Shown here piece by piece: positions 4,311-42,520 of a DNA stretch of 64,000 nucleotides. The first letter of the stretch is position 1, and the number at the start of each line of letters is the position of its first letter. Position numbers and translations under genes: made by a program. The stretch lies in contig NZ_JACGWS010000002.1 of the NCBI RefSeq assembly GCF_014397005.1, positions 1-64,000 on the forward strand. The letters run 5' to 3'. The DNA comes from Kordia aestuariivivens. Its GTDB lineage: Bacteria > Bacteroidota > Bacteroidia > Flavobacteriales > Flavobacteriaceae. Under the pieces are notes generated by a model. The model made no database searches. It saw only the letters and a list, made by a program, of their open reading frames with translations, and was not told the DNA's origin.

Positions 4311-4454
4311 GGGCGTTACCCCAAATGTTCCTTTCGAGAAAATCTCAATGAACATTTGCGGTCAGGCTCGCGGCAGTCGCTTTTTGCTTTCAGTCTTCGA
4401 GTTCCTCAGACTTCTAGCAAAAGAGCTCCAACAATGCCTTCATCCTTAACGCGG
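4311..4454 (-). ncRNA. Structured 5' leader element, copy A (uvrB)
   Basis: Read on the minus strand, the element starts with GCGTTA (4447-4452), followed by AAGGAT. A long hairpin closes with TTTTGCT/AGCAAAA and AGTCT/AGACT, then comes GCCTGACC, a second hairpin (AAATGTTC/GAACATTT), and finally TAACGC (4313-4318), which pairs with the first six bases. The element begins just after a -7 box and ends about 28 bases before the uvrB ATG. A second copy with the same plan precedes dapD. The structure is seen directly; a regulatory role is inferred. It may belong to a known flavobacterial RNA family such as Flavo-1, which I cannot confirm. Confidence 0.6.
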
Positions 4455-4461
4455 TGTTTTG

Positions 4462-4469
4462 CAAAAATA
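4462..4469 (-). promoter_or_regulatory. -7 element upstream of the uvrB leader
   Basis: Minus-strand TATTTTTG fits TAnnTTTG. Transcription starting a few bases downstream would begin almost exactly at the structured leader element, supporting the idea that the whole element is transcribed as the uvrB 5' leader. Confidence 0.5.
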
Positions 4470-4510
4470 ATGAAAAGGAATGAGGAAATCTATGTATGAA
4501 GAAATGTGTT

Positions 4511-4681
4511 TTAATTTAATTCTTGTAAACTTTGAATTAGATCTTCCGCGCGTTCTGTCCAGAAAGAATCATCAGTAGCGTCTTTAATTTTTTCTTTTAG
4601 TAGCGGAATGAAATCTGGATCATTTGATGCTTCAATTCCTTCTAAAATAATGAAACGATCTTCATCATGTTGTTGAAGTTT
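4511..4681 (-). pseudogene. In-frame coding remnant after the stop at 4682
   Basis: Directly after the TAA of the upstream gene, the same reading frame stays open for 56 more codons, to a TAA at 4511-4513. The encoded segment includes HDEDRFIILEGIEASND and ends QSLQELN. It has protein-like composition, resembles a helical HEAT-type repeat, and has no ATG, GTG or TTG start near its beginning. The simplest reading is that a single GAA or CAA codon mutated to TAA and cut off the C-terminus of an originally 260-residue protein. Stop readthrough or a sequencing error are alternatives. Confidence 0.55.
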
Positions 4682-5293
4682 TTAAAGTCCTGCATCTTTT
4701 TTGACCATAATGCCATTGCGTTTTAGATATTTTTCAATGGAATCATTAAAGTCAGAAAAGAAATTTCCGTTGTCCAAATCTCTGATTCCGCCAGAATTAT
4801 CAGAAGCTTCTAAAAAAGCATATAGCTTAGAATTTGTGATCGCTTTTGCTTTTTGCCAACACGCTATTAGAAAATCCAAATCTAATTCAGCGCGCGTTTC
4901 CCAAATAGCTGAAATATCATATTCATCTAGTTCTTCATCATCAATATTGTGTTTTTTTAGCGTATTTACACACATTTCATAGACATCATAATCGTCATAC
5001 ATGTCCATGTTTATTTCTGGTCTGGCCATGTCATAATCTTCTTCGTAGAAATCTAAACATGACATTGCAAAAACCCACGAGAGTCTACTATTTGCATCAT
5101 AAATTACGGAAATTAACTTGATTTCTTTTGATGCTTTATGGGTTCTGTAGCCATCTTCAAAGTTTTGAACTTTTGTAAAGAATTTGATGAATTCAGCTTC
5201 CATTGGTTGTAACAGTTCTTTGGTATAAGTAGTTTCAATGTCTTCTATAATTTTGTCAACTTCAAAGCCTTCTAAATCCTCAATAGTTCGCAT
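4682..5293 (-). CDS. Hypothetical protein, probably truncated by a nonsense codon
   Basis: A 203-residue acidic, soluble, mainly helical protein with no signal peptide. I do not recognise a family. The reading frame is open further upstream, but that part is basic, overlaps the preceding gene and looks non-coding, so the ATG beginning MRTIEDLEG at 5291-5293 is chosen; it falls 13 bases after the preceding stop. The frame continues for 56 codons beyond the TAA at 4682-4684 (separate entry), so the protein seen here has probably lost its C-terminus. It probably shares a transcript with the small exported protein upstream. Confidence 0.6.
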   Translation of the reverse strand: MRTIEDLEGFEVDKIIEDIETTYTKELLQPMEAEFIKFFTKVQNFEDGYRTHKASKEIKLISVIYDANSRLSWVFAMSCLDFYEEDYDMARPEINMDMYDDYDVYEMCVNTLKKHNIDDEELDEYDISAIWETRAELDLDFLIACWQKAKAITNSKLYAFLEASDNSGGIRDLDNGNFFSDFNDSIEKYLKRNGIMVKKDAGL

Positions 5294-5306
5294 GAATTTG
5301 TAGGTT

Positions 5307-5855
5307 TTATTCTTTAGTGAGTTCTTGCCAAACCTTGTGTAGCATCGTTTTATGTATCGTATATGTTTCAGGAACATTTTTGACAGGCGACAGCGAGAAA
5401 GAGAATTTTTTATCAGCATCAAAATTCCAATAGTTACCATTTAGTTTGCCATTTTCAGTTGCTATATACCATTGTGGAATGTTGATGATGGAAAATTTAC
5501 CTTCAGGATTCGTATCAATTGCAAATACTTTTAAGTCTTCTAATTTGGTGTATTTCAGCGTAATTTTAGTAGAAAGCACACCTTTTTCGGTTGCATTATA
5601 TGTAATATATTTTTCCGTAAAAGTATCAAGATGAGTATTCCAACTATCTTTTTTAGTATAGATAGATGCGAATTCTTTGGCAATGGACAGACTGTCTTTT
5701 TCTGTTGGATAAATTGCCAATAGATTTTCATGCTGAATTACAATTGTTTTTGTTTTCGGTGAAACGATTACGATTGTTTTCTCAGCAATTACTGTACTTG
5801 TTTCGATTCCAAAAAATAATCCTAAAACAAAGAGAACAATCTTAATGGTTTCCAT
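5307..5855 (-). CDS. Hypothetical exported protein
   Basis: A 182-residue protein with a hydrophobic N-terminus (residues about 4-24, IKIVLFVLGLFFGIETS) that looks like a signal peptide or a single anchor. The rest is a mixed strand/helix domain containing IPQWYIATENGKLNGNYW. No family is recognised. The gene starts 6 bases after the stop of the 1607-residue T9SS protein and is followed 13 bases later by the truncated hypothetical gene, so the three may be one transcript. Function unknown. Confidence 0.6.
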   Translation of the reverse strand: METIKIVLFVLGLFFGIETSTVIAEKTIVIVSPKTKTIVIQHENLLAIYPTEKDSLSIAKEFASIYTKKDSWNTHLDTFTEKYITYNATEKGVLSTKITLKYTKLEDLKVFAIDTNPEGKFSIINIPQWYIATENGKLNGNYWNFDADKKFSFSLSPVKNVPETYTIHKTMLHKVWQELTKE

Positions 5856-5861
5856 AAATTT

Positions 5862-8800
5862 TTATCGCTTTAGCGTGAAGTGACCTTTTAATTCAAATGC
5901 ATCCGGACCATCTTTGATTTCTGCCAAGAACCAATAATCACTCGAAGGTAATTTGCGACCTCTGTACGTTCCGTCCCAACCACGATCGCCCGCGCGTAAC
6001 GTTTTTATTAGTTTTCCATACCGATCAAATATGTATACGATTGAGTTTGGAAGTGTTTCAATTCCGATAATATGCCAAGTGTCATTGAATCCATCACCAT
6101 TAGGTGTTACAAATCCAATGTAATCGACCACAACTGCTTCTGCGCTGACTTCACCACAACCATTTATATCCGAAACAGTTACCGTGTGATATCCTGGGCC
6201 TACAAATTCAAATATGTTTGATACTTGCGGTGTTCCGCCATCTAATGCGTATAGGTAATCGCCATTTCCAGTCGCAGTTACCGTAATGGTATTGTTATCA
6301 GAGAAGTTCACGACATCTATTTCTACGATGGTTGCTAGTTCTGATTCGTTTACGGTGAAACTATCTGTTTGCGAACAGCCAAATGCACTTGTAACCGTTA
6401 CATCATACGTTCCAATAGAAGTAATGTCAATGGAAGCCGTTGTTGCACCTGTTGACCATAAATAGCTGTTTCCTATTGCAGAACCAGCCGTAACTGTTAA
6501 TGGAAGATCGTTTAAACATAATGTAATATCTTCTGGCAAATCAATTTCTGGCAATGGAAATATAATCGTTGTAAAGTCTGTAGTCGCAAAACAACCAGTT
6601 GTATTGTTTTCTATACGTACATGAATTATTTGCCCGTCAAACGCGCTGTATGATGTTGGCAATGGACTTACGTCGTTTTCTGCATCTTCAATACTTACGT
6701 GATAACTTACCGTAAATAAAGCAGGGTTTTGTGTCCCTAATACCGTTGCCGTTTGTTGTGATAGATTGAATACTTGCGTAGAATTGGAATTATCACTGAT
6801 ACACGCTTCCATATCACTTACCGGATTTGCTATTGGATTCGGGTTGATGTTAATGTCAATATTAGCAACAATGTAACAACCTGTATCATCATTTTCTGCG
6901 CGTATAAATATCGTTTCAGGATTTGTCATGTATGTGTAAATATCTGGCAATGCATTGATGTCTGCATCTGCATCTGCGGCAGAGTTGTAGTACAACAATG
7001 AAACTCCAGTTGGATCATCAATGATAATGTCATCTATTTGGCGTAAATCTACAGTGCCAGGTTGTTCAGCTTCACAGAAAGTTGCTTGTGTGACATTGTT
7101 TAGTAATGGCGGTAAATTCACGTGTAGTGTAAACGGAATTACTACGTAACAACCAGAGATTGTATTGAACAAACGCACAAAAATTGGTTGCGGATTGTTT
7201 GTGTTTGTATAGTTTGTCGGATCGGGAATTGTATTTGTTCCATCATCCGCATCTTGTTGTGTTTCATGATAGGAGATAACCACATTGTCTTGTCTGATAT
7301 TTAAAATATCAAATTCAGCTTCTGTCAAATCAAACACTACTTGTCCATCATAATCTACATCACAAACCGTGACATCTGGCGCAGGATTTGATTCAGGAAC
7401 TTGAATTACATTTACTTCAAAGTCAACAACCGTAATACAATTTGAATCATTTGAAATTCGCGCATATATTGCTTGAGGATTTGTTACGTTCGTAAACGTA
7501 GTTCCGATCGGATTTAGATTTGTATCCGCATCATCAAATGATAAGTGAAAGGAGATTGTTAAGTTTTGCGGTATTCCAGCACGGATTTCAGCTTCGGTAG
7601 CTGTAATATCAAAGGTGTCAATTCCGTCATTCGTTACATCATCACACACAAAAATATCAGTGGGTTCATTGTAAAGTGGTGCTGGACTTACTTGAATTAC
7701 AAAGGAAGAAACAGCAAAACAATCTGGATCAGTATCATTTTCTATCCGAACATGAATTGTTTGCGGATTTGTTTGATTCGCAAACGGCAATGTTTTGTCA
7801 ATTTCGTTCGTTTTATCCAATGCATCTTGTGCAGTAGGATAGTAGAGTACTGTCATGTCCGTTTGACCATTTAAGATTTCAACATCTCTGGTTTGCATGA
7901 TAAAGTTTTCCGTTTGATCTGTATCTGTTTCACACAATTGATAAATATCTGTGGCAATTACAGCTGGAATTATATTGACAATAATTGGTAATTCTACTAC
8001 GGTAAAACAGTTTGTCGTTGCATTTTCTACACGTACAAACGCGCTTGTCGTAGCGGTGTTATATGCTGTAGGATCGGGAATTATATCTGTATTACTAAAT
8101 GCTCCTCCAGCAGAAGCATGATAACTAATGCTTATGTTGGTTAAATCGGGAATGATTTCTGGTTGACTTACCGTTACATCTACATCCGCAATTCCGTCAG
8201 TATCATCATCACAAATTAAAATTGTAGACGGTTGTGTCACCGTTGGTGCTGGTAATATATCTATAAAAAATGAAGATATATCTGTACAACCTGTAGCTGG
8301 ATTGTTGTATCTAAAAAATATTTCTTGCGGATCCGAAGTATTGATATATGGATCAGTAATCGAGTTGCTAAATGAATTCGCATCTAACAGTGTTGCAAAG
8401 TAAAATACATTGTATGTTGTGTTTGCTCCTTGAATTGTTGGTGTAAATGTAGTTAGATCGATTCCTACAATTTCATCATCATTCGAATCACAATATGTAA
8501 GTGTGCCTATATTTGGTGCCATAACATTCGGATTCACCACTAAGTTAAAAGAGTCTTGATCTTCACAACCCACATCATCCGTAAGTGTGATAAATATTTC
8601 TTGCGGATTGGAAGTGTTTGTAAAAGGAGTTGTGATATCAATTGCATTTACCTGATTGGTTCTGTCATTTTCATTTAGATAAAAGACAATATTAACATAT
8701 GTTAGATTGTTTTGGATGGAATTAAAAATCGTTTGAAAATTGAAATCAAAAAAGCCATCATTACTTGGATCGTCACAACGATTTACATCTCTAATGTTTG

Positions 8801-10685
8801 TAGCTGTTAATAGCGCATTACTATGTGCGACAAATTGTGTCAAACTAAAACAAGCTGAATTATCATCTTGTACACGAATAAATAAGGTTTGTTGATTGAT
8901 ATCAGTGTTTGTGAAAGCTGTGATATCTGGAATTGGATTTGCGCCAGTTGTTGCATCATCAGATGAGGTATGAACGGTTACAGTAACTCCCGTCAATCCC
9001 ATCGTAATTTCATTGATAATGTCTGTTAAATCGAATGTGGCAAAACCATCATGATCTGGATCACACGCATCTACTAAGTTTCTGTTTGGTATATTTAATA
9101 CAGGCGTTGTGCTTACATTTACCAATAGTGTAGTTGTTATTTCACATCCTGTTTGTGTATTTACAACTCTAACAAATACGGTATCATTTGGTGTTGTATT
9201 TATAAAGTTATTTATAATTGGATTGATATTATTATCAGCATCACTTTGTGTAAAATGATAGGTAACTCCCAAAATGGGATTCATTGCTGTAATTTCATCA
9301 GTACGAACGCTTAAATCAACAGAAGCAACTCCGTCGTCGTCACAGATATCAAAAGGAGTTGGATTTGTAATCGTTGGTAACGGATTTACCACCAAGTTAA
9401 AACTTGTAAACGCCAAGCAACCATTGTCAATATCTAAAACACGTACAAAAACTTCTTGTGGTGATGTTGTATTTTGAATTGTATTTGGAAATGCATTTGT
9501 ATTATCGTTTGCATCATTTTGTGTTGGATGATACGTTATGGTATAGTTTGCAGGCGGAACAGTTCCTAATATTTCTCCTTGTTTGATGGGCAAGTTGAAA
9601 CTTTCTATTCCATCTTGAGAAATATCATCGCAGAGTTCAAAGTCGGTTATTGGTCCGGCAGATTGTGCAGAGTTTAAGGTAACTTCAACAGTATCTTCAA
9701 TAACACAAGTTCCTGTGCCGATCGGAATTGTAATTTCTACTCTATATATTCCCGTAAGGATAGCATCGTGTGTATCTGCATTACTTCCCGGAATGGTTAC
9801 TCCGTTTCTAAACCATTCATACGTTGCTAACGGATTTTGAATGTCTGCGTTTAGTAAATAAGAGTCTGCACAAGTTTCTACATCTGGACCTAAATCAACC
9901 GTAGCATTAAAACTGTTTCCTTGGATAAAAATAGCAGAATCTGCATTTTGATCCGTTCCATCCGCAATTATTAATTTAATATGATATTGTTGATTAGGAA
10001 TGATACTTGCTGTTGCCGTTAATACTGTAGTTCGTCCATTGTAGTTGGTGTCGCCTAAATTATATCCTTCAAAATATTGTTCATTTTCAGCAGGGCAGAA
10101 GCCCACAATTTCATCGTGAATTACACTCGTACTTACAGGAATGTTTGTTCCTGGTACCACGGCAATATTCGTATAAGGCGCAGTACTTCCTGCTTCTCTG
10201 ATTAAAAAAGCAAAACTATCTGAAAATCGACATGGAAAATCTGCAAAGTATTCTTCGGAAGCTAATAAGTAATTAAAACTGATTTGATTGGTAGCAGCAA
10301 TAAAATCGAATTCTATCGAAGTTGCATTCAGCGTATTACTTACGCCCAAAGCCATTTCAATATCTGGATCCGTTCCCCAAGCTGTTGTTCCTCTGTTTAA
10401 AGGTGCAGTATTTATAGGTGTTCCGGCATCAGAAGCACGACCGGAAGTTAGTACCAAACCATTTGCAAAAGGAAACCCAGAGGCAGCCTGATCAAAATAG
10501 GCGAAACTTGCAAAGCCGTCAATATTTCCATTTACGGAAGATGACACATTTGAAATTTCTACACATCCTTGGGCTAATTGCGCTACAAGTTGATCTAATG
10601 TAAATGATTCGTTCGTTGTTACTTGCTGTGCGGAAACTATTTGGTAAGCGCATAGCGTAAAAAGTATCAAAAAAACTTTTTTCAT
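5862..10685 (-). CDS. Giant secreted repeat protein, choice-of-anchor L N-terminus and type B T9SS C-terminus
   Basis: A 1607-residue surface or secreted protein. An N-terminal signal peptide ends near AYQIVSAQ (about 20). A choice-of-anchor L domain follows at about 25-260 (FANGLVLTSGRASDAG, LLASEEYF), then an Ig-like segment. Eleven units of about 94 residues run from about 340 to 1380, each with a CDD...DG start, an FDLT strand, a YH...DA turn, a FVRVEN strand, a TGC Cys and a final NPLP-like linker. The end is a gliding-motility-associated C-terminal domain (TPNGDGFNDTW, IFDRYGKL, GWDGTYRG) that sends it through T9SS. The paired Cys of each repeat suggest disulfides. The role is probably adhesive, by inference only. 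Confidence 0.9.
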   Translation of the reverse strand: MKKVFLILFTLCAYQIVSAQQVTTNESFTLDQLVAQLAQGCVEISNVSSSVNGNIDGFASFAYFDQAASGFPFANGLVLTSGRASDAGTPINTAPLNRGTTAWGTDPDIEMALGVSNTLNATSIEFDFIAATNQISFNYLLASEEYFADFPCRFSDSFAFLIREAGSTAPYTNIAVVPGTNIPVSTSVIHDEIVGFCPAENEQYFEGYNLGDTNYNGRTTVLTATASIIPNQQYHIKLIIADGTDQNADSAIFIQGNSFNATVDLGPDVETCADSYLLNADIQNPLATYEWFRNGVTIPGSNADTHDAILTGIYRVEITIPIGTGTCVIEDTVEVTLNSAQSAGPITDFELCDDISQDGIESFNLPIKQGEILGTVPPANYTITYHPTQNDANDNTNAFPNTIQNTTSPQEVFVRVLDIDNGCLAFTSFNLVVNPLPTITNPTPFDICDDDGVASVDLSVRTDEITAMNPILGVTYHFTQSDADNNINPIINNFINTTPNDTVFVRVVNTQTGCEITTTLLVNVSTTPVLNIPNRNLVDACDPDHDGFATFDLTDIINEITMGLTGVTVTVHTSSDDATTGANPIPDITAFTNTDINQQTLFIRVQDDNSACFSLTQFVAHSNALLTATNIRDVNRCDDPSNDGFFDFNFQTIFNSIQNNLTYVNIVFYLNENDRTNQVNAIDITTPFTNTSNPQEIFITLTDDVGCEDQDSFNLVVNPNVMAPNIGTLTYCDSNDDEIVGIDLTTFTPTIQGANTTYNVFYFATLLDANSFSNSITDPYINTSDPQEIFFRYNNPATGCTDISSFFIDILPAPTVTQPSTILICDDDTDGIADVDVTVSQPEIIPDLTNISISYHASAGGAFSNTDIIPDPTAYNTATTSAFVRVENATTNCFTVVELPIIVNIIPAVIATDIYQLCETDTDQTENFIMQTRDVEILNGQTDMTVLYYPTAQDALDKTNEIDKTLPFANQTNPQTIHVRIENDTDPDCFAVSSFVIQVSPAPLYNEPTDIFVCDDVTNDGIDTFDITATEAEIRAGIPQNLTISFHLSFDDADTNLNPIGTTFTNVTNPQAIYARISNDSNCITVVDFEVNVIQVPESNPAPDVTVCDVDYDGQVVFDLTEAEFDILNIRQDNVVISYHETQQDADDGTNTIPDPTNYTNTNNPQPIFVRLFNTISGCYVVIPFTLHVNLPPLLNNVTQATFCEAEQPGTVDLRQIDDIIIDDPTGVSLLYYNSAADADADINALPDIYTYMTNPETIFIRAENDDTGCYIVANIDININPNPIANPVSDMEACISDNSNSTQVFNLSQQTATVLGTQNPALFTVSYHVSIEDAENDVSPLPTSYSAFDGQIIHVRIENNTTGCFATTDFTTIIFPLPEIDLPEDITLCLNDLPLTVTAGSAIGNSYLWSTGATTASIDITSIGTYDVTVTSAFGCSQTDSFTVNESELATIVEIDVVNFSDNNTITVTATGNGDYLYALDGGTPQVSNIFEFVGPGYHTVTVSDINGCGEVSAEAVVVDYIGFVTPNGDGFNDTWHIIGIETLPNSIVYIFDRYGKLIKTLRAGDRGWDGTYRGRKLPSSDYWFLAEIKDGPDAFELKGHFTLKR

Positions 10686-10770
10686 AGGAATGGGGTTAAG
10701 TCGTACGGCTATTATGACACGATTTTAGTTGGGCAAACTAGCATCCTGTTGTTTCATAATCAATTATGGA

Positions 10771-10778
10771 CAAATATA
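10771..10778 (-). promoter_or_regulatory. -7 element of the 1607-residue protein gene
   Basis: Minus-strand TATATTTG fits TAnnTTTG and lies about 85 bases upstream of the start codon. It would give a leader of about 80 bases. This is a motif match only. Confidence 0.4.
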
Positions 10779-10889
10779 TACATAATTTAACGCTTCTGAA
10801 ACTATTTTTATTGCTAACGACTTGTTTTATAATTAGCTACTTAATGTTTCTAAAATACAGAAAATCAATTATATTACGGTAAAATTCAT

Positions 10890-13016
10890 TTAATTATTCT
10901 GTAAATATACCCAACCTGTATAGGTTTGTTCAAGCAATAAAGGACTTACTAAGGTATTTTCATCATTTAAGTACAATACATAAAAATATGTTCCTGCGGG
11001 CATTTTTTTATTTCTTGGCGTGCCTCTATTTGCATATCCGTTCCAACGAGAAGTGTTTTTGTTGCCTTCAAATATAAGTGTGCCATATCGGTTGTAAATA
11101 TGAATTTTATGATTTGGATGTGCTTCTAGATTTAAAATATTAAAAACATCATTTTTACCATCTCCGTTTGGAGATAAACCATTCGGAATATAAATTTCAC
11201 AATCATCCACGCTCAAGTCAAAAGAAGTCGATGCTATGCAACCATTTATATTTTCAACCGTAACATAAATTGTTTGCGGATTCGAAGTATTATCGTATGC
11301 AGTTGGCGTTGTGATTTCATCTTGAAACGTTCCGTCTGAATTTTCGGTTTCGTAATAGGTAATTATAGTCGTTGGACTTGAATTTATAGTAGATTCGTGT
11401 AAAGTCAAATCAAAAGTCACGAATTCTGTATCATTCAGTTTACAAGCGATTAAATTATCAGGTTCATTGGCTTCAGGACTTTCCAAAAGGATCAAATTAA
11501 AATCTCCAATAGAATCACATAACGTACTACTATTAGTCACTTTAATATAAATTTCTGTTGGATAATTTGCATTGCTGTATGAAGTAGGATTTGTAATGAC
11601 ATCTGTATTGTTTGAAGCATCTAGAAAGGTTTCGTAGTATGCAAAAGTGAAAAATGGATCACTGAAAAGAGCTTCTTGTATTGTTAAATCGAATATGAGA
11701 TTCTCGTCGTTATCGCACAATTCTAAATTTGGTAATACAGGAATCACAGGTGAAGTTGGAAGTGTAATAAGTTGCAATGCGTCATTATTATCTTCGTTGA
11801 TTTCATCGACAGTTCCTGTGCCAGTTCCATCATCATCAACTACAATCGTAAGGTTGAAAGTATTCGGAATTGTTGCCGGAATTGTAACTGTTATATTTTG
11901 CTGAATGCTTCCACCAATTGGAAGTGCTATTTGCGTGGCAGCAGTAGCAATCAAAATTCCATCTGTATAAAAAGCAATCGGCGTATTTTGAGGTAGGGCA
12001 GCAGTACTATTAGTGTTTGAAATGGTATATGTAATGTCTAAATCTCTGGAATCACACACCGAATTAACTTGATCAATTGTAACCGTTGCATCAGGAAGTT
12101 GACTGTTGAGTACGGTAATTATGTTATTAATCATCACAAAATCTTGACCAGAAGTCAATGAAATCGTGGCTTGTGTATCTCCAATGGCGATATAATTTTG
12201 AATGCTATACACATCAATATCCATATTATATAAATTGGTAGCACCTGTAAAACTATTCGTGCCGTTGAATGCATTGTTTGCTGGATTCAGCGGAAGGTTT
12301 TCTATAATATTCCCATTAATACGTAACGATTCATTCACGCTCAACGCTGCATCGCCTTCCCAAGCAATAAAGCCAATTTTTGCGCCCATATTATCAAAAA
12401 CGCTGAGGTTTTCCAGTGTAATTTCTAACATATCAGGCACACTTTCCAAGCCATCATACACGTTGAGTTGATTCAGCGGAAGCGAAGGATCTTCATAAAT
12501 AACCGTAATTGCCCAACCGCCAAAGTTGGTGCCTGTCGGACAATAGGGTGTAATTACAGACGTCAAATCAAATTCACTTACCGTATACAAACCATTTCCT
12601 GTAGCTTGTACAATCGTTGTTACATCAGCAAATGCTGCAAAAAACGTTCGATTCCCTGTCAACGCATCACTAAAAGTTCGATCTGCTGAAACAGGAATTC
12701 CGTTTAACTCAATATTAAAATCACCATCATCTGATCCTGCCCAATACAAATAAGCAGCCACCATCGTTTGATTTGTATTTAAAAATAAGCTTGCGCTAGA
12801 AGATGTATTGATTGTGCAAATACCACCTGGACCGTTTTCAGTCGTATTGAGTGTGTTTCCAAGTGCTGTGTAATCGTACCGACCGTTGAATTGTTGGAAC
12901 AACGTAATATCTTGTGCAGTCGCTTTAAATGTGTTTAAAAAACAACCTAAAGAAAGTAAAATAGCGATATACGTTCGTTTGTCCACACAGATTTGATTAA
13001 TTCTTGAAAGTAACAA
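10890..13016 (-). CDS. Secreted protein with CARDB-like domain, two shared repeats and type B T9SS C-terminus
   Basis: A 708-residue protein. The N-terminus carries a hydrophobic stretch ending ATAQ (about 35), a late signal peptide. Next is a large beta domain with LYWAGSDDGDFNIELNG near residue 90, of the kind found in flavobacterial surface proteins. A CARDB-like segment follows (about 310-410, DVTYTISN-like strands and DEINEDNND), then two copies of the roughly 95-residue repeat used in both neighbouring giant proteins. The C-terminal sorting domain starts GLSPNGDGKNDVF and has IYNRYGTLIFEG. An in-frame start nearer the signal peptide is possible. Its ligand is unknown. Confidence 0.85.
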   Translation of the reverse strand: MLLSRINQICVDKRTYIAILLSLGCFLNTFKATAQDITLFQQFNGRYDYTALGNTLNTTENGPGGICTINTSSSASLFLNTNQTMVAAYLYWAGSDDGDFNIELNGIPVSADRTFSDALTGNRTFFAAFADVTTIVQATGNGLYTVSEFDLTSVITPYCPTGTNFGGWAITVIYEDPSLPLNQLNVYDGLESVPDMLEITLENLSVFDNMGAKIGFIAWEGDAALSVNESLRINGNIIENLPLNPANNAFNGTNSFTGATNLYNMDIDVYSIQNYIAIGDTQATISLTSGQDFVMINNIITVLNSQLPDATVTIDQVNSVCDSRDLDITYTISNTNSTAALPQNTPIAFYTDGILIATAATQIALPIGGSIQQNITVTIPATIPNTFNLTIVVDDDGTGTGTVDEINEDNNDALQLITLPTSPVIPVLPNLELCDNDENLIFDLTIQEALFSDPFFTFAYYETFLDASNNTDVITNPTSYSNANYPTEIYIKVTNSSTLCDSIGDFNLILLESPEANEPDNLIACKLNDTEFVTFDLTLHESTINSSPTTIITYYETENSDGTFQDEITTPTAYDNTSNPQTIYVTVENINGCIASTSFDLSVDDCEIYIPNGLSPNGDGKNDVFNILNLEAHPNHKIHIYNRYGTLIFEGNKNTSRWNGYANRGTPRNKKMPAGTYFYVLYLNDENTLVSPLLLEQTYTGWVYLQNN

Positions 13017-13109
13017 ATTCTCACATCATAAAAAAACGATCAAGGAAGTTTTGACAGTTTATCTTGAAGAAATAGGAGTGAGGACTCCTTAAAAAAACGA
13101 TTTAGAAAA

Positions 13110-13151
13110 GATAGAATTATAGACCGCACTTTTATACTTAAAAATTCTATC
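13110..13151. repeat. Inverted repeat, 9-base arms
   Basis: GATAGAATT at 13110-13118 is matched by its exact complement at 13143-13151, with a 24-base spacer. It could be a weak hairpin or a protein-binding dyad near the ATCAAGA cluster. Confidence 0.4.
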
Positions 13152-13166
13152 TAGATCTATTGTAGA

Positions 13167-13246
13167 TTTTATCAAGATAAAATATTTTTTTGTCTTGATG
13201 TTTTGGTCAAAGTATCAAGACATTTTTTTATTTTATCAAGATAAAA
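13167..13246. promoter_or_regulatory. Cluster of four ATCAAGA sites, two as 16-base palindromes
   Basis: Two identical copies of the palindrome TTTTATCAAGATAAAA lie at 13167-13182 and 13231-13246, 64 bases apart. Between them GTCTTGAT (13192-13199) and ATCAAGAC (13214-13221) form an inverted pair. All four contain the core ATCAAGA. The symmetry and regular placement between divergent genes look like an operator array, but a pure hairpin or replication-related structure is not excluded. Confidence 0.45.
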
Positions 13247-13768: not shown

Positions 13769-13794
13769 AGTATGTTTTATTTTTTCTGTTTAAT

Positions 13795-22552: not shown

Positions 22553-22836
22553 TATGATTGTTTTTTGATTGATTGTATATAGTTGACGACTTAGGTTGCT
22601 ATTTGTTACAAAATATAAAAAACATAATGTATATGTGACTTATTTATAAAATGTATTGTTTGTTTTCAAAATTGCTGTTAAAAAGAGTCTTAATGGGTAC
22701 AAATATACACATCACACCTAAAAAACAGGTTTTAAAACAACGATAATCTATAATTTACGATGACCAATAAAATACTACTGGGGGAAGCCGAAAAACCAAT
22801 TTATAAATAGAGTAGGCAAATCAAAATAATTTAATT

Positions 22837-28821: not shown

Positions 28822-28823
28822 GA

Positions 28824-34199: not shown

Positions 34200-34200
34200 T

Positions 34201-34956: not shown

Positions 34957-35003
34957 ATACGGATGAAGATACTTTTTTTCTTGTGAAAATGATATTCTAC
35001 GAA

Positions 35004-35011
35004 CAAAAGTA
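35004..35011 (-). promoter_or_regulatory. -7 element of the GT2/GT4 operon
   Basis: Minus-strand TACTTTTG fits TAnnTTTG, about 48 bases upstream of the GT2 start codon. Confidence 0.45.
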
Positions 35012-35053
35012 ATAATTTTACAAGGATTTTGATCTTTGAATAAAAAATAACTT

Positions 35054-35776: not shown

Positions 35777-35788
35777 CTAAAAAGAGGC

Positions 35789-35817
35789 AAAAGAGTTCTT
35801 TAGGGAAGAACTCTTTT
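35789..35817 (+). terminator. Terminator of the deacetylase gene
   Basis: The 12-base arms AAAAGAGTTCTT (35789-35800) and AAGAACTCTTTT (35806-35817) close a 5-base loop. A short T run ends the stem. Confidence 0.8.
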
Positions 35818-35960
35818 GGTAGTAAAATAAAAAGGGGTAATGTATTTTCTAAAAATACATTGTTCAAAATTACATTGAAATTGTTTTCGTGCTTGAAATT
35901 TTAGATAAATGAAAGGGAATTCGTAGATGAACAGTAGTATAAGGTTCTTTGATCTTACTT

Positions 35961-36698
35961 TTACTTAATTCCTTTTTGAAGCAACATCAATTTTACATAT
36001 CTCGAAAAAACACCATAGGCATTAATTCCGGCAACAGCCAAACCTGGAACACCATCCATAAAACCACGTTTCACGATATATTCATGAAAAAAGCGATACA
36101 AAGGTTTGAAAGCTAAATGAAAATAGGTGGCTTTTTTCCCTTTTTCCAACATGCGTTCTGCCTGAAACCACGCGTAACTATCTTTTTTGCTGATGTAATG
36201 CAATAAACCTTTATACGTGTAATGAAGTACTTTGTTTTTTAACTTTCCAACAGTTCCATCCACGATGAGTTTTTCATGTACATTTCCTTCAAAATGACAC
36301 TTTTCACGGACAACCAATCGTGTCACATCGTTGTTGTGATGATACAAAAATCGATTCATATAAAAATGAGGAAAATTCAATTTATAGGCGGTGTGTTTTC
36401 CAGAGTTCATTGCGGCAATGATCTCTTTTTGAAGTTGATACGTAATGCGTTCATCTCCATCTAAAAACAAAACCCAATCGCAAGTTGCAAATTGCAGTGC
36501 ATGATTTTTTTGATTGGAAAAATTATCAAACTTCCGAGAAATCACTTTGCAGCCATGCGCTTCAGCAATTGCGACAGTTTCGTCGGTACTTAACGAATCG
36601 ATCACAATAATTTCATCGGCAAATTGTACAGAATACAGCGCATCTTTAAGATACAAAGCTTCGTTATACGTTGGAATGATGACAGAAAGTGTTGGCAT
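35961..36698 (-). CDS. Glycosyltransferase family 2 (WaaE/KdtX-like), copy 2
   Basis: A 245-residue GT2 enzyme. The start is the ATG at 36696-36698 (MPTLSVIIPTYNEALYL); six upstream codons are unlikely. It shows DEIIVIDSLSTDETV and FLDGDERI. It parallels the GT2 at 34201 in length, motifs and C-terminal shape (FKPLYRFFHEYIVKRGFMDG), indicating duplication within the cluster. It is divergent from the GT2 at 36749 with overlapping promoter regions. It probably extends LPS core or another envelope glycan. Confidence 0.9.
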   Translation of the reverse strand: MPTLSVIIPTYNEALYLKDALYSVQFADEIIVIDSLSTDETVAIAEAHGCKVISRKFDNFSNQKNHALQFATCDWVLFLDGDERITYQLQKEIIAAMNSGKHTAYKLNFPHFYMNRFLYHHNNDVTRLVVREKCHFEGNVHEKLIVDGTVGKLKNKVLHYTYKGLLHYISKKDSYAWFQAERMLEKGKKATYFHLAFKPLYRFFHEYIVKRGFMDGVPGLAVAGINAYGVFSRYVKLMLLQKGIK

Positions 36699-36713
36699 GA
36701 TAAATTTAAAACA

Positions 36714-36721
36714 CAAACTTA
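36714..36721 (-). promoter_or_regulatory. -7 element of GT2 copy 2
   Basis: Minus-strand TAAGTTTG fits TAnnTTTG, 16 bases upstream of the ATG. It lies next to a plus-strand -7 box 12 bases away, so the two divergent promoters overlap. Confidence 0.5.
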
Positions 36722-36732
36722 CTAAAAAACTT

Positions 36733-36740
36733 TATATTTG
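36733..36740 (+). promoter_or_regulatory. -7 element of the plus-strand GT2 gene
   Basis: TATATTTG fits TAnnTTTG and ends 9 bases before the ATG at 36749, so the leader would be only a few bases. Confidence 0.45.
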
Positions 36741-36748
36741 TGGTCTGT

Positions 36749-37570
36749 ATGACAACAATAGACACTTCCATAATAATAAGCACGTACAACTCTCCTGAGT
36801 GGTTGGCGAAAGTTTTACACGGCTACAACAATCAAACGTATCGATTGTTTGAAATCGTCATTGCTGATGATGGCTCCAAGCAAGAAACCATTGATTTAAT
36901 TGAAGAAATTCGCAAAGAAGTCTTTTATCCAATAGTGCATGTTTGGCATGAAGATAACGGTTTTCAGAAATCGCAAATTCTCAACAAAGCCATTGTAAAA
37001 TGTAGTTCGCCGTACATTATTATGTCGGATGGCGATTGTATTCCGCGCGCCGATTTTGTAGAACAACATATAAAGCAGCGTGAAGAAGGTTTTTTCCTTT
37101 CGGGAGGATACTTTATGCTACCAATGAATATTTCGAAACTCATCACAAAAGAAGACATATACGAGGGCAATTGTTTTGATGTCAAATGGTTGAAACAACA
37201 CGGATTGAAAGCTTCTTTTAAGAATAATAAATTAACTTCTGCGGGTTTAAAATCACGTTTTTTAAACGCAGTTACGCCGACAAATGCAAGCTGGAATGGA
37301 CACAGTTCTTCGGGCTGGAAAAAAGATATTGTAGCTGTCAATGGATTTGATGAACGCATGCAATACGGTGGACAAGATCGTGAATTGGGCGAACGTTTAT
37401 TCAACTACGGATTAAAAAGTAAACAAATTCGATACAGTGCGGTTTGCGTACACTTAGATCATCCACGTGGTTACAAAAACCAAGAATCAATCAATAAAAA
37501 CTTAGCGATTCGTAAAACAACCAAAGACGAAAACAAAAAGTGGACGGATTTTGGAATAGTTAAAAAATAG
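36749..37570 (+). CDS. Glycosyltransferase family 2 with Glyco_transf_7C-type end
   Basis: A 273-residue GT-A enzyme of the chondroitin-synthase-like or galactosyl type. It shows DTSIIISTYNSPEWL, EIVIADDGS, MSDGDCIPR (DGD metal motif) and a C-terminal region with GGQDRELGERL, which fits the second-domain motif of this type. GTG at 36740 is open upstream, but the ATG at 36749 directly precedes the conserved strand. It is divergently arranged with the GT2 at 35961. Confidence 0.9.
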   Translation: MTTIDTSIIISTYNSPEWLAKVLHGYNNQTYRLFEIVIADDGSKQETIDLIEEIRKEVFYPIVHVWHEDNGFQKSQILNKAIVKCSSPYIIMSDGDCIPRADFVEQHIKQREEGFFLSGGYFMLPMNISKLITKEDIYEGNCFDVKWLKQHGLKASFKNNKLTSAGLKSRFLNAVTPTNASWNGHSSSGWKKDIVAVNGFDERMQYGGQDRELGERLFNYGLKSKQIRYSAVCVHLDHPRGYKNQESINKNLAIRKTTKDENKKWTDFGIVKK

Positions 37571-37768
37571 TATTGAGTAGTGAGTTTTTAGTATTGAGAT
37601 TGGAACGCTTCGCTTTTGGAACGCTTCGCTTTTTGTTCTTATGATACGTCTTTACGAGGAGGAAACAACGAAGTAATCTATTTATTGAGAAACAGATTGT
37701 TACAAGTTTTTCAAAATTTTCGCAATGACGCTTTATTTCAAACACTTCTAAATTTGAAAAATAACTGA

Positions 37769-38341
37769 ATGAACATAAAAAAAATCAGTATAGCTTTCGT
37801 GCAAATCATTTTAACGGTATTATTGTTGTTATCAGGTTTTTTGCTGATCTACACTAGAATACCTGGGAATGGAGCCGTTTGTGATGCAGATCAAATGATT
37901 TATTTTTTGGTCATAGTGGTTTTCACGATTTCTTCCATAGGTTTGTTACTTAGCACTTCTGCTCTCTTTAGTAATTCCAAATGGAAGAAGTATAAGTTTT
38001 TTACCATAACACTTATTTGCCTTTTAACCTTTTTAATTTTCTCTACGAGAAAAATAATGTTTATGACGAAAGGTGAAAAAGAAATGATGCTAGTTTCAGA
38101 TGATTTTTACACGCTAGAAATTCAATTATATAAAAGTGGAGATTTTTTTTCGTACTCATTTGATGGAATTTCATGCGAAGCAGAGAGTTTGGGAACGTAT
38201 GAAGTATCTGATGGAGTATTGAAATTAATTTTTAAGACTAAAAAACCGCTACTTTTAGGTAGTTTATATACTATTGATAAAGAAGAAGTGCATTGTATTG
38301 ATTGCCCTGTAAGTCAAAAGTTGAAATTAGTTGAGAAATAA
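37769..38341 (+). CDS. Hypothetical membrane protein
   Basis: A 190-residue protein with a hydrophobic N-terminal half: segments at about 7-27, 44-65 and 75-95, then a soluble half of about 90 residues (EMMLVSDDFYTLEIQLYKSG, YSFDGISCEAESLG). The C-terminal half resembles a small beta domain and contains Cys in GISCEAE and in HCIDCP. No family is recognised. It lies alone and has a short leader. Function unknown. Confidence 0.65.
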   Translation: MNIKKISIAFVQIILTVLLLLSGFLLIYTRIPGNGAVCDADQMIYFLVIVVFTISSIGLLLSTSALFSNSKWKKYKFFTITLICLLTFLIFSTRKIMFMTKGEKEMMLVSDDFYTLEIQLYKSGDFFSYSFDGISCEAESLGTYEVSDGVLKLIFKTKKPLLLGSLYTIDKEEVHCIDCPVSQKLKLVEK

Positions 38342-38466
38342 AAAAAATCATAAGTATCAAAGAAGCGAATTACTATGTCGTTTCTCTTCGTAAATAGGTT
38401 TTAAAGTATTTCTCCATACAACGAATCGTAGATTCGCCACTCGAAATGACGATTCATTAATTTTCA

Positions 38467-38550
38467 TCTAACAAGTCTAACAAGTCTAACAAGTCTAACA
38501 AGTCCAAAAATCCAAGTAGTCTAAAAAAGAAGTCTAAAAAAGAAGTCTGA
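38467..38550. repeat. Tandem 9-base repeat TCTAACAAG, array 1
   Basis: Four TCTAACAAG units (38467-38504, the last one imperfect) are followed by decaying copies (AAGTCTAAAAA) to about 38550. It lies downstream of the minus-strand methyltransferase gene. The same unit recurs at 41492 and 59598, and in decayed form at about 48357. Confidence 0.75.
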
Positions 38551-38613
38551 GCGGAGTCGAAGACTGACATTTTATTTCAAACACTTTTACATTTAAAATT
38601 TAGAGTTTTACAT

Positions 38614-39183
38614 TTATAATTTATAAACTCCAACTTTCCAATACGTTTTTTCTTCTTCGGTTTTAACAACGGTAAAGCCAAGTCTTTGTAGTTTCTCGAA
38701 ATATTCCCAACAACCAACACCTTCACGGTAAATAGATACAATCAAAATTCCGTTTGCTTCTAAATGACTCAGCATTCTGTCTAAAACGTTTTGCTTCTCA
38801 GATTCATGGATATAATAAAAAGCTTCATTAAAAATGATCACATCAAACTTTCGAGTTGGTTTGTAGGTGTGAATGTCAGCTGTGACAAATTCTGCTTTTG
38901 AAAAGTTTTTCGCTTTTGCTTTTTGAATCGAGACATCGGAAAAGTCCATTCCTAAAAAATAACTAAACATTTCCGCATCTAAATATTCGTTCAAAACACC
39001 TTCGCCGGCGCCTAAATCGAGAATACTTGGTTGTTTTTTACCATGGGAAGTAATAAAATCAATGATTGTTTTATAGCGATTTGCTTCAATCGGATTGCGC
39101 AAATTGTCCCAACGTCCTTTTTTATATTGCTTATTCCAACGTTGTTTTCTGCGCCAGTTATGAAATTTATCAATTAGATTCAT
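38614..39183 (-). CDS. Class I SAM-dependent methyltransferase
   Basis: A 189-residue methyltransferase. Motif I is ILDLGAGEGVLNEYL at about 54-68, then FLGMDFSDVSI (acidic ribose contact), ADIHTY, and VIIFNEAFYYI as motif IV. It is short and contains only the catalytic domain. It is preceded by a GT9 gene with a 1-base gap, so it is probably a glycan or lipid modification enzyme; the exact acceptor is unknown. Confidence 0.88.
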   Translation of the reverse strand: MNLIDKFHNWRRKQRWNKQYKKGRWDNLRNPIEANRYKTIIDFITSHGKKQPSILDLGAGEGVLNEYLDAEMFSYFLGMDFSDVSIQKAKAKNFSKAEFVTADIHTYKPTRKFDVIIFNEAFYYIHESEKQNVLDRMLSHLEANGILIVSIYREGVGCWEYFEKLQRLGFTVVKTEEEKTYWKVGVYKL

Positions 39184-39184
39184 G

Positions 39185-40249
39185 CTATTTTTTTATGTGT
39201 AAATTTAAAAACTGTTCCAGTTTCGGAATAATCATTTCTGGCGTTAATTGTTTGTATAAATCATGCGGATTTTCTTCGATTTTCTTGCGTTCTTCAAACG
39301 TAAATGTATCAAATAAATCAGGTTTTTCTTCTAATAAATGAATGGATTCGTGCTGTTTTCCATCTTCAAAACTCGCCCAATGATCTTTATTCACATACGG
39401 TGAAAATATCGTAAAAGTGGGTTTGTTCAGTGCTTTTGCTATGTGGACAATTCCGCCTTCATTTGCAACCATTAAATCGCATGCATACATAAGTCGTACA
39501 AAACCACGAATACTATCTTCATAAATATCTAAAATGATACTTTCTTTATTGGTACACATTTCATAAATTTTATCGGCTTCCGTTTTTTGATTCGGCGCGT
39601 AGTTGAAGAGAATGTGAACTTTATAGTTGGACGTGATATAATCAACCAATTCGGCAATGTATTCGTACGGCATCGACTTTTGCGGCGTACTTCCCAAAAT
39701 CCCCAACATCAATACAGGATGTTTGTACTTGTCAAGTTTTGGATATATTTTTTCGGCTGACTGCAATGTGATTTTTGGTTCGTAATCAGGATTTTCTAAA
39801 GGAAAAACAGATGTAATTAAGTTGATGCGATCTTCAATTGCTTTTCCGCAAATATGTGATTTTTCATCTAATAAATTAATTGGATGTGAGTAGAAGGAAA
39901 GCGGTAATTTTTTATGCTTTCGTTTATTTCCAATGCGATATTCCGCTTTTGAAAAATAACAAATCAAGCGACTTTGTAATTTAGAATACGGATCAAAAAT
40001 AATGTCGTATCTCTCTTTTCGAACTTTACGAATCATTTTAATCAAATTCGGAATCTTTTTTAGTTCCTTTTCATTGATTGGAATGATAATATCGATATTC
40101 GGATTATTTTCAAGAACGCCAGTAGTAAAGTCATAAGCCATAAAATCTATACGACTTTCGGGAAATATTTTTTTAATATTATTCGCTATTACAGAACTTA
40201 TCAAGACATCTCCAATACGCTTATTCTGTATAATTAATATTTTTTTCAT
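39185..40249 (-). CDS. Glycosyltransferase family 9 (heptosyltransferase-like)
   Basis: A 354-residue GT9 enzyme of the ADP-heptose LPS heptosyltransferase type. It shows RIGDVLISSVIANNI at the N-terminus and a C-terminal ANEGGIVHIAKALNKPTFTIFSP segment, the usual donor-binding motif of the family. Members build the LPS inner core. The methyltransferase gene follows with a 1-base gap, while the WaaP-like kinase is divergent upstream. The donor could be heptose or another sugar. Confidence 0.93.
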   Translation of the reverse strand: MKKILIIQNKRIGDVLISSVIANNIKKIFPESRIDFMAYDFTTGVLENNPNIDIIIPINEKELKKIPNLIKMIRKVRKERYDIIFDPYSKLQSRLICYFSKAEYRIGNKRKHKKLPLSFYSHPINLLDEKSHICGKAIEDRINLITSVFPLENPDYEPKITLQSAEKIYPKLDKYKHPVLMLGILGSTPQKSMPYEYIAELVDYITSNYKVHILFNYAPNQKTEADKIYEMCTNKESIILDIYEDSIRGFVRLMYACDLMVANEGGIVHIAKALNKPTFTIFSPYVNKDHWASFEDGKQHESIHLLEEKPDLFDTFTFEERKKIEENPHDLYKQLTPEMIIPKLEQFLNLHIKK

Positions 40250-40360
40250 GCAATGTTGTTATAGATACAGGCAATATGTGCAAAATATTATTTTTTCGGG
40301 GTTTATTAAAATTTCATTTCATCTATTTATAATTTTTATTTTATTTCTGTCAATTTCACA

Positions 40361-40368
40361 TATCTTTG
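40361..40368 (+). promoter_or_regulatory. -7 element of the WaaP-like kinase gene
   Basis: TATCTTTG fits TAnnTTTG, 18 bases upstream of the ATG. Confidence 0.5.
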
Positions 40369-40385
40369 AAAAATAACTTTTTAGT

Positions 40386-41141
40386 ATGCAAATCGTACAC
40401 ATTCATCCAAAATATCAAGATAAAAAGGATGCGTTATTGACTTTTATCAATGCTTTTGAAACCGAAGGTGAATATGTAACCAAAGGCGAACGAAACGTAA
40501 TTAAGTCGTTTCAGTTGGCTGACGAAAAGATCAATGTGAAATCGTTTCGTGTCCCAAAATTTTTCAACGGATTTGTATATAAATTCATCAGACCTTCTAA
40601 AGCAAAACGTTCGTTTGAATATGCAGAAAAGTTATTATTGAACGCGATTAAAACGCCTTTTCCAATTGCCTACATTGAAAATTATTCCGCTTTTGGGCTG
40701 AAAGAAAGTTATTATGTGAGTTTACATATTGACTACGATTTTGATTTCCGCGCTTTGATTCACGATCCATTATTTGAAGATCGACGCTTTATTTTGGAGC
40801 AATTTGCCGAATTTTGCTTTCAATTACATGAACATAATGTCAACTTTTTAGATCATTCACCTGGAAACACCTTGGTTGTAAAACGTGACAATAATTATGA
40901 TTTTTATCTCATTGATTTAAACCGAATGCGTTTTGAATCAATGTCTTTAGATAAACGTATGGAAAACCTAAAACGTTTGTGGCTTTCCAAACAGATGATT
41001 CATATCATTAGTAAGCGTTACGCCGAACTTGCAAATAAAGAACTTCACGAAGTTCAAGATGTGTTATTAAAACACAGCACAGCTTTCAAGCGAAAAATCA
41101 ACCGTAAAAAGTATTTGAAGAAGAAGTACTTGAAACGCTAA
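40386..41141 (+). CDS. Lipopolysaccharide kinase (WaaP/Kdo kinase family)
   Basis: A 251-residue protein-kinase-like fold. The catalytic segment FLDHSPGN carries D156 and N161, and LIDLNR at 175-180 stands for the DFG motif. The early Lys/Glu pair is less clear. The family phosphorylates Kdo or heptose in LPS core, or sugars of other envelope glycans. The position next to a GT9 gene, divergent from it, supports a role in LPS core decoration. The C-terminal tail is strongly basic. Confidence 0.85.
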   Translation: MQIVHIHPKYQDKKDALLTFINAFETEGEYVTKGERNVIKSFQLADEKINVKSFRVPKFFNGFVYKFIRPSKAKRSFEYAEKLLLNAIKTPFPIAYIENYSAFGLKESYYVSLHIDYDFDFRALIHDPLFEDRRFILEQFAEFCFQLHEHNVNFLDHSPGNTLVVKRDNNYDFYLIDLNRMRFESMSLDKRMENLKRLWLSKQMIHIISKRYAELANKELHEVQDVLLKHSTAFKRKINRKKYLKKKYLKR

Positions 41142-41260
41142 CGCGTTTAGACTCGCTTCGCTTTTGGACTCTTTCCCGCGTAGGCGGGAATCTCTTGGAA
41201 CGCTTCGCTGTTAGATCGGCTTCGCCTCTTGGATTTTTGGATTCTTATGGTTTTACTTTT

Positions 41261-41335
41261 CGTCATTCTGAACTTGATTCAGAATCACATTATCTTTAGT
41301 TTTTTGTGAGAAGCTGAATCAAGTTCAGCTTGACG
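41261..41335. repeat. Palindromic intergenic element, TGAACTTGATTCA type, copy 2
   Basis: The left arm 41261-41289 and right arm 41305-41335 are inverted copies around a short T-rich spacer; each arm is itself a hairpin. It has the same design as the element at 25958-26040. Confidence 0.75.
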
Positions 41336-41491
41336 CAGACATAGATTTGTAGAATACGTCAGTTCGAGTAATTTTCAAAGAAAATTGTATCGAGAACTAC
41401 TTTAAAATAAAAAGCGGACTTCGAATTATATCTCAGCCCGCAATTATATGTCATTCCTGCTTAGGCAGGAATCAATTTTTAGTTTTTTTGA

Positions 41492-41559
41492 TCTAACAAG
41501 TCTAACAAGTCTAACAATCTAAGTTGTCTAAGTCAGTCCAAGAAGTCTAACAAAGTCTA
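41492..41559. repeat. Tandem 9-base repeat TCTAACAAG, array 2
   Basis: Two and a half perfect TCTAACAAG units are followed by decaying ones, ending 2 bases before the dapD stop. It is the same unit as the arrays at 38467 and 59598. Confidence 0.7.
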
Positions 41560-41561
41560 TA

Positions 41562-42377
41562 TTAAACCGCCACATCATGTTCGCGCAAAGCGTCATTCAA
41601 TGAAGTCTTTTTATTCGTACTTTCTTTACGTTTTCCAATGATTAATGCACACGGAACTTGATATTCGCCCGCAGGGAATTTTTTCGTATAACTTCCAGGA
41701 ATCACAACCGATCTTGCCGGAACGCGACCTTTCATTTCAATCGGTTCGTCACCTGTAATATCAATAATCTTAGTAGAAGCTGTCAAAACTACGTTTGCAC
41801 CTAAAACCGCTTCGCTTTCCACACGAACGCCTTCTACCACAATACATCTCGATCCGATAAACGCATTATCTTCAATAATCACTGGCGCAGCTTGCAAAGG
41901 TTCTAAAACGCCACCAATTCCAACACCGCCAGACAAGTGTACATTTTTACCAATTTGCGCACAACTTCCAACTGTTGCCCACGTATCTACCATGGTTCCA
42001 GAGTCAACATACGCACCAATATTTATATAACTTGGCATCATAATCACACCTTTAGAAATATACGCACCATGACGTGCAATTGCATGCGGAACTACACGAA
42101 TTCCTTTTTCTGCATAGCCTCTTTTCAGTGGAATTTTATCGTGAAATTCAAAAATTCCAGCTTCTAAGGTTACCATTTTCTGAATCGGGAAGTATAAAAC
42201 CACTGCTTTTTTTACCCATTCGTTCACTTGCCAACCGTTTTCAGTGGGTTCTGCAACGCGCAATTCTCCAACATCTAACAAATCAATGACCTTGCGAATT
42301 GCTGCTTGTGTGTCTTCGTTTTTCAATAATTCTCGGTTGTCCCAAGCGTTTTCAATAGTTTCTTTTAATGCGATCAT
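41562..42377 (-). CDS. dapD: Tetrahydrodipicolinate N-succinyltransferase (DapD)
   Basis: A 271-residue left-handed beta-helix enzyme that succinylates tetrahydrodipicolinate in the lysine/diaminopimelate pathway. It shows hexapeptide repeats from about 100 to 225 (GAYISKGVIMMPSYINIGAYVD, GSCAQIGKNVHLSGGVGIGG), the flexible loop LEPLQAAPVIIED and a normal C-terminus. dapB begins 21.6 kb away at the right edge. The gene is single, behind a structured leader and -7 box. Confidence 0.97.
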   Translation of the reverse strand: MIALKETIENAWDNRELLKNEDTQAAIRKVIDLLDVGELRVAEPTENGWQVNEWVKKAVVLYFPIQKMVTLEAGIFEFHDKIPLKRGYAEKGIRVVPHAIARHGAYISKGVIMMPSYINIGAYVDSGTMVDTWATVGSCAQIGKNVHLSGGVGIGGVLEPLQAAPVIIEDNAFIGSRCIVVEGVRVESEAVLGANVVLTASTKIIDITGDEPIEMKGRVPARSVVIPGSYTKKFPAGEYQVPCALIIGKRKESTNKKTSLNDALREHDVAV

Positions 42378-42414
42378 GCGTATATGTTTTGTAATTTTTT
42401 GACTTTTACTTTTT

Positions 42415-42520
42415 GGGTGTGCCCTTCATATTTGCTGTTCCTTAGCAAAAATTCAGGTCAGGCTATTCGCTGTATCTCCCGAGAAAATCGGGAGGATGCC
42501 GCTGCTATCCTTCACACGAT
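42415..42520 (-). ncRNA. Structured 5' leader element, copy B (dapD)
   Basis: On the minus strand it reads GTGTG (42513-42517), AAGGAT, a GGAT/ATCC stem, a hairpin CCCGA/TCGGG, GCCTGACC, a second hairpin (TTTGCT/AGCAAA) and CACAC (42417-42421). The ends pair as GTGTG with CACAC, whereas in copy A the same positions pair as GCGTTA with TAACGC. The base pairs change but pairing is kept. It follows a -7 box and ends about 38 bases before dapD. The function is inferred to be regulatory. Confidence 0.6.

Follow-up and report, generated by a model that had tools for sequence, protein, structure and literature searches.

Two structured elements precede the genes uvrB and dapD in a stretch of 64,000 nucleotides (nt) of Kordia aestuariivivens (contig NZ_JACGWS010000002.1, positions 1 to 64,000; hereafter the window). 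Genes, elements and boxes described in this paragraph and the next lie on the minus strand. Gene uvrB (2294..4282; NCBIfam equivalog, 1046.8 bits) is preceded by copy A (4311..4452), a shell element with a tip of type S. Gene dapD (41562..42377; NCBIfam NF008808 at 368.2 bits, above the cut-off; TIGR00965 at 303.6 bits, below its cut-off) is preceded by copy B (42415..42517), a shell element with a tip of type F, that of the Rfam family Flavo-1 (RF01705).

Both copies have the same plan: closing stem P1, AAGGAT, inner hairpin arm, GCCTGACC, second hairpin, closing partner. In copy A, the closing stem consists of GCGTTA (4447..4452; sequence and fold) and TAACGC (4313..4318; sequence). The inner arm of copy A (4368..4441) ends in a tip of type S, TTGTTGGAGCTC ... 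AGCGACT, whose loop holds a nested palindrome, and is followed by GCCTGACC (4360-4367) and the folded second hairpin (4319..4359). In copy B, the closing arms are GTGTG (42513..42517) and CACAC (42417..42421), both read from the sequence; the inner arm (42464..42506; Rfam match) bears the Flavo-1 tip, AGCGGCATCC ... GATACAGCGAATAGC, and is followed by GCCTGACC (42456-42463) and the folded second hairpin (42422..42455). A promoter -7 box of the TAnnTTTG type, a consensus given in PMC9723704, stands 9 nt before each closing stem: TATTTTTG (4462..4469) at copy A and TATCTTTG (42527..42534) at copy B. A common plan of two leaders, placed after such a box and before unrelated genes, with a closing stem that differs in its bases and keeps its pairing, had been proposed in the original prediction; it is borne out on each of these points, with limits right within a few bases.

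Homology, structure and tip types

Three covariance models were used. R1 was built from type-F copies only, in their extended form (copy A excluded, copy B included). R2 is a type-S model. R3 is a type-S model from which copy A and all uvrB rows were excluded, because circularity was to be avoided. Copy A is detected by R1 (22.8 bits, E 0.0025 in the 64 kb) and by R3 (61.1 bits, E 2.8e-14). Copy B is detected by R3 via the common shell (E 2.3e-5), by RF01705 (44 bits at 42452-42537; cut-off 42) and by R1 (80 bits, with copy B in the training set). The Rfam scan of the window gave no match overlapping copy A, even at E<=10. The folding z-score is -4.3 for copy A (0/200 shuffles as good) and -2.1 for copy B (7/200). 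A resemblance due to chance, or a pair of unrelated leaders, might be suggested by the inner arms, which are unlike in sequence; it is refuted by models that exclude the tested copy and still detect it, and its probability is negligible. Copies A and B are confirmed as real, homologous, structured elements of one dispersed hairpin repeat.

Twelve type-F copies of the genome (copy B among them, copy A excluded) align well with their loops shortened, giving 28 predicted pairs, of which 22 show double changes. When the outer part of hairpin 2, which is uncertain, is removed, 23 pairs are left; 97.4% of cells are paired (79.3% in shuffles), 17 of the 23 pairs show double changes and the covariation score is 0.53 (0.18 in shuffles). 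None of 500 shuffles is as high in pairing, double changes or covariation score. The shell is composed of the closing stem P1, a lower stem with an A.G mismatch and an apparent tandem G.A loop, and the second hairpin. The Rfam model RF01705 is without the closing stem and second hairpin of this extended form. The two closing arms are perfectly complementary in 69 of 78 extended F copies and in 122 of 129 S copies (the script sought the complement first; the 129 S rows keep L281, probably false, and L126, a hybrid), so that a covarying closing stem is general across copies. Among the 78 extended F copies the closing stems include GCGTT/AACGC (36), GCGTG/CACGC (6) and GCATT/AATGC, GAGTT/AACTC, GTGTG/CACAC, GGGTT/AACCC and GTGCG/CGCAC (3 each).

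Three tip types are carried by one shell: F (Flavo-1), S (the type of copy A) and T (AAGTTAC..GTAAC). Type S surfaced in the genome search with R1, as the same shell with another tip. Palindromes, for example GATTCCTGCC..GCAGGAATGAC or CACTGAG..CTCGAAGTG, lie inside tip or second-hairpin loops (L305, L297, L064 and other S copies), and the loops look like preferred nesting places for other repeats. Copy B is the known Flavo-1 and copy A is a type without an Rfam match (types F and S were compared with Rfam). What was found in Rfam 15 and in the literature searched does not cover the extended shell, the S and T types or tips that differ at fixed sites; no description of type S or T was found in literature on Flavo-1, on flavobacterial repetitive extragenic palindromes (REPs) or on Kordia intergenic repeats. 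Flavo-1 was described by Weinberg et al. 2010 (PMC2864571), where a table enters it as a likely RNA, not cis-regulatory. The accessible parts of the literature found on Flavo-1 give no function for it. The earlier alternative of the known Flavo-1 or an undescribed class is thus divided, the former holding for copy B (44 bits) and the latter for copy A. The hairpins do differ in sequence as predicted; they have not merely diverged, the inner arms being different tip types on the same shell.

Copies in the genome, the genus and the class

In the genome (5.46 Mb), an RF01705 scan, in which 150 of 1256 candidates were scored, gave at least 10 sites above the cut-off (copy B and nine more) and three weaker, clear ones. 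A pattern search adds L027 and L028, of which L027 passes the RF01705 cut-off. R1 gives 24 matches at E<=1, and R2 seven further places among the matches listed. RF01705, the pattern search, R1 and R2 together point to about 33 places among the matches listed. Further copies occur in other Kordia and in Flavobacteriaceae. Assignment of the genome to Kordia agrees with its uvrB, whose closest named loci belong to that genus.

The number of R1 matches per Kordia genome ranges from 1 (G005) to 23. R2 gives 4 to 26 matches per genome in 11 Kordia genomes, some being F or T elements caught via the shell. G005 (L039, L068, L098) has 1 R1 and 4 R2 matches; its sister G001 (support 99) has 13 and 16. 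At E<=1e-5, R2 matches are present in 98 of 149 genomes of Flavobacteriaceae and in 41 of 295 genomes of the class. A stricter level, E<=1e-9, was chosen because recognised type-F copies in the Kordia R2 search reach E about 1e-8; by hand count, 73 of the 149 family genomes and 11 of the 295 class genomes, nine of them outside the family, are retained. Strong type-S copies are present in scattered other families of the class. On the element itself, 20 of 20 type-S loci (20 genomes, of 29 fetched) gave no Rfam match at E<=0.01. One genome of another family, G209, has 12 type-S matches of up to 88 bits, equal in strength to native Kordia copies. Locus L126, also of another family (genome G028), combines the shell of canonical Flavo-1 with a tip resembling S (TGAGCTC..AGCGAGT) and is a possible hybrid.

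Fixed sites, tip differences and mobility

Clustering of 158 element records by their flanks gave 24 sites common to at least two Kordia species and 17 single sites; it misses members (uvrB 9 genomes vs 10 by reading, dapD 5 vs 7). Seven of the 24 shared sites are mixed in tip type, with flanks and shell retained; two of the seven (L005/L365 and L027/L377) have an S-like, not exact S, tip. The pair L337 and L003, outside this count, is a further mixed candidate on a whole-locus match. At site L007 the shell letters GTGAT/AGCACGAC are the same in three species and the tip is of type F in G000 and G006 and of type S in G003; since the shell letters are kept while the tip differs, the exchange at this site stops inside the shell. 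Type-F hairpin 1 is no more alike between orthologs (0.47, 35 pairs) than between unrelated copies (0.48, 280 pairs); same-genome paralogs reach 0.58 (63 pairs).

The uvrB leader carries the element in 10 of 11 Kordia genomes and is without it in G005. Its tip is S in five, T in four and F in one (G006). The nearest relative of G006 in the uvrB tree, G008 (support 76), carries S; this tree leaves out G002 and G010, in which no uvrB frame was found, and its backbone support is low. The dapD element is present in 7 of 11 genomes.

A non-autonomous mobile element, of the kind of a miniature inverted-repeat transposable element or REP, could owe its mobility to a transposase or recombinase that acts in trans and was not found here. 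Such an element would account for the range of 1 to 23 R1 matches within one genus, for strong copies in distant families, and for uvrB and dapD sites that are empty in G005 and both occupied in its sister G001. It is at variance with the 24 of 41 sites common to two or more Kordia species (not every copy was fetched) and with the lack of a target duplication at the uvrB and dapD sites, as judged by eye in the Kordia leaders. No mobilising gene was found for the element. The genome has one match to Y1_Tnp, similar to the REP-associated tyrosine transposases (RAYTs), at E<=0.001 (L022 1399-1953, plus strand). On both sides of that gene stand inverted copies of a short repeat of its own, which contains GATAGCGCGGACTTGCAGTCCGTGC and has more copies nearby, and the 3.2-kb locus gave no Flavo-1 match at E<=1; a RAYT was rejected as mobiliser, the sole Y1_Tnp match being flanked by the other repeat and not by the element. 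Two exact patterns matched only 3 and 9 stretches in viral contigs, some of them sharing a contig, and one 75-nt type-S query gave no match in plasmids. A mobile element of this kind is considered improbable.

Gene context, wobble pairs and the nature of the repeat

Position relative to genes was determined per Kordia site, by the majority of species at each site and with genes called by simple open-reading-frame rules, for 40 usable sites of 41 (L301/L302, near-identical contig ends, are without gene context). Of these sites, 22 are oriented antisense to both neighbouring genes and 9 sense; 7 are convergent and 2 divergent. Sites with F alone (n=8) are sense in 4, antisense in 2 and convergent in 2; sites with S alone (n=20) are sense in 3, antisense in 14, convergent in 2 and divergent in 1; the mixed-tip group (n=8, including one S site with an unclear row) has 2 sense, 5 antisense and 1 convergent. 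Before ortholog removal, 28 of 36 canonical copies were antisense within 100 nt of gene 3' ends, vs 3 sense, and for 25 of the 29 type-S copies taken from the family search the 3' end of a gene on the other strand is no more than 100 nt away. The leader position of copies A and B is real, yet not typical of the repeat.

Among 80 named uvrB loci, R1 and R2 find the element in 4, in all of them upstream of the gene. By reading, only the two Kordia records have it in the leader. In L213 (Cellulophaga fucicola) and L214 (a metagenome-assembled genome of Bacteroidetes) it lies 54 and 72 nt before the uvrB start and, as judged by eye, precedes the promoter. The idea that the leader copy of uvrB is widely conserved was rejected on the count of 4 in 80. 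A terminator role was rejected as well; no T run was seen by eye at the end of either strand. Origin and terminus could not be located from GC skew, which was weak at 20 sampled places per genome in three genomes, and no claim is made on a replication-strand bias of element orientation. In six Kordia genomes, G005 included (L341, L348, L360, L367, L378, L306), one gene is preceded at 15-18 nt by a type-S copy that stands just 3' of a TATTTTTG box. The gene is one which, by its N-terminal sequence, we take to be seryl-tRNA synthetase-like.

In a cis-acting RNA leader, a junction in the 5' untranslated region would sense a ligand or protein, or shield the 5' end, and in this way control how the mRNAs of uvrB, dapD and other genes are translated or degraded. 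Consistent with this are the start of P1 9 nt after the -7 box in both window copies, retention in Kordia at uvrB (10/11), dapD (7/11) and a transaldolase-like gene (7/11), and a compensatory change in the dapD closing stem. A sense start codon follows within 60 nt at 6 of 40 sites vs 1 of 40 at the mirror position (27 of 78 extended F copies vs 7 before ortholog removal); the six include uvrB and, judging by a separate count, dapD. Against it, the contrast of 6 vs 1 sites is based on small numbers and is not firm, and at 22 of 40 sites the element is antisense to the genes on either side; the uvrB tip differs between the sisters G006 and G008, and the uvrB and dapD copies are missing from G005. 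PMC9723704 bears on both sides: in Flavobacterium psychrophilum, Flavo-1 matches coincide with several 5' transcribed regions, but the matches seemed to be indistinctly sense or antisense and many lie outside transcribed regions.

Wobble pairs were counted in one pipeline on 114 Flavo-1-type copies (78 extended F, 36 canonical), 129 S rows and, as a control, 30 thiamine pyrophosphate (TPP) riboswitches. Nearly all paired cells of the element copies are Watson-Crick pairs. G-T pairs make up 1.0% of cells in extended F (15/1457), 1.0% in canonical (6/578) and 1.4% in S copies (22/1624), vs 7.0% in the TPP control (29/416); six tRNAs gave 10/125. The ratio of one-sided to two-sided changes is 15:203 in extended F, 6:69 in canonical, 11:311 in S and 28:75 in TPP. 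Counted directly over the shell stems and hairpin 1, type S has 9 G-T and 6 A-C in 1693 cells. Selection on RNA would lead one to expect G-T in sense copies and A-C in antisense ones. The pattern seen is otherwise, with 4 G-T vs 5 A-C of 1066 cells in copies sense to both neighbours and 16 vs 6 of 2006 in antisense copies. The G-U tolerance expected of a leader RNA is therefore not found in sense copies (4 of 1066 cells vs 29 of 416 in TPP). The predicted recurrent structured leader stands as recurrent, structured and covarying; its designation as a leader RNA agrees poorly with the 9 sense and 22 antisense sites of 40 and with the near-zero wobble. As a general account of the repeat, the RNA leader is judged unlikely. 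The copies at uvrB and dapD may have a role as RNA.

The reading preferred here, at somewhat less than even confidence, is that A and B are copies of a DNA-level dispersed intergenic hairpin repeat with exchangeable tips, REP-like in habit. It draws on the observed shell, covariation, tip types, same-site tip differences, nested palindromes and copy-number variation between species. It is also favoured by the 22 antisense sites of 40, by the hairpin-1 similarity of type F, which is no higher between orthologs than between unrelated copies, and by the strong type-S copies in scattered other families. The arms would be kept complementary mainly as DNA, through single-strand hairpins or through correction of one arm from the other, and ectopic recombination or gene conversion via the short arms of the shell may transfer tips from one copy to another. 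Since a promoter box lies immediately upstream of each, the uvrB and dapD copies are expected to be transcribed as 5' leaders; any effect on these mRNAs, such as a paired 5' end that slows decay, would be secondary. The wobble deficit is moderate evidence for this DNA-level repeat, graded so because rows are non-independent and the covariance-model and motif searches favour well-paired copies.

Several further points weigh against the DNA-level repeat. The pipeline structure of type S (13 pairs) is without the closing stem, so that the true shortage of wobble pairs may be smaller. Overall, there are more G-T than A-C pairs on the named strand (15:4 in extended F, 6:1 in canonical, 22:3 in S copies), an excess that would follow from RNA selection or from folding of one DNA strand. 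The closing stem at the single site of dapD is GTGTG/CACAC, GCGTG/CACGC, GTGCG/CGCAC or GTGCG/CGTAC across Kordia (the last with a wobble), which includes the compensatory change. Vertical retention extends from uvrB and dapD to a canonical site kept in 11 of 11 Kordia. The excess of sense starts, on few sites, and the two negative results on a target duplication and a mobilising gene count on the same side.

Three known systems may be compared. Flavo-1 RF01705 agrees with the inner arm of copy B, above the score cut-off, but its Rfam model, lacking the closing stem and second hairpin, reaches neither copy A nor any of the 20 type-S loci. REPs and bacterial interspersed mosaic elements with their RAYT are likewise dispersed intergenic hairpins, often near gene 3' ends; the present element is a larger three-way junction, and the local Y1-transposase is flanked by another repeat. 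Integron attC sites are folded-strand recombination sites with variable tips, but the arm order of the element does not fit their core-site consensus. A broader proposal, which we regard as doubtful, would make Flavo-1 not a single RNA but one of the tips borne by a family of DNA hairpin cassettes. Shells fixed in place would then occupy many chromosomal sites in Flavobacteriaceae, and a folded-strand process would repeatedly exchange F, S and T tips and let palindromes nest in the loops.

Stems that covary strongly and yet hold almost no wobble pairs caution against taking covariation by itself as proof of an RNA. Whether Flavo-1 is an RNA regulator or a DNA hairpin element becomes testable once it is extended to a shell bearing several tips, of which one is widespread and unmatched in Rfam, and tips are seen to differ at fixed sites.

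An RNA family match outside these subjects, to DUF805b RNA, lies in the window at 22778-22818 (plus strand; 33.6 bits, slightly below the gathering score of 35.6).

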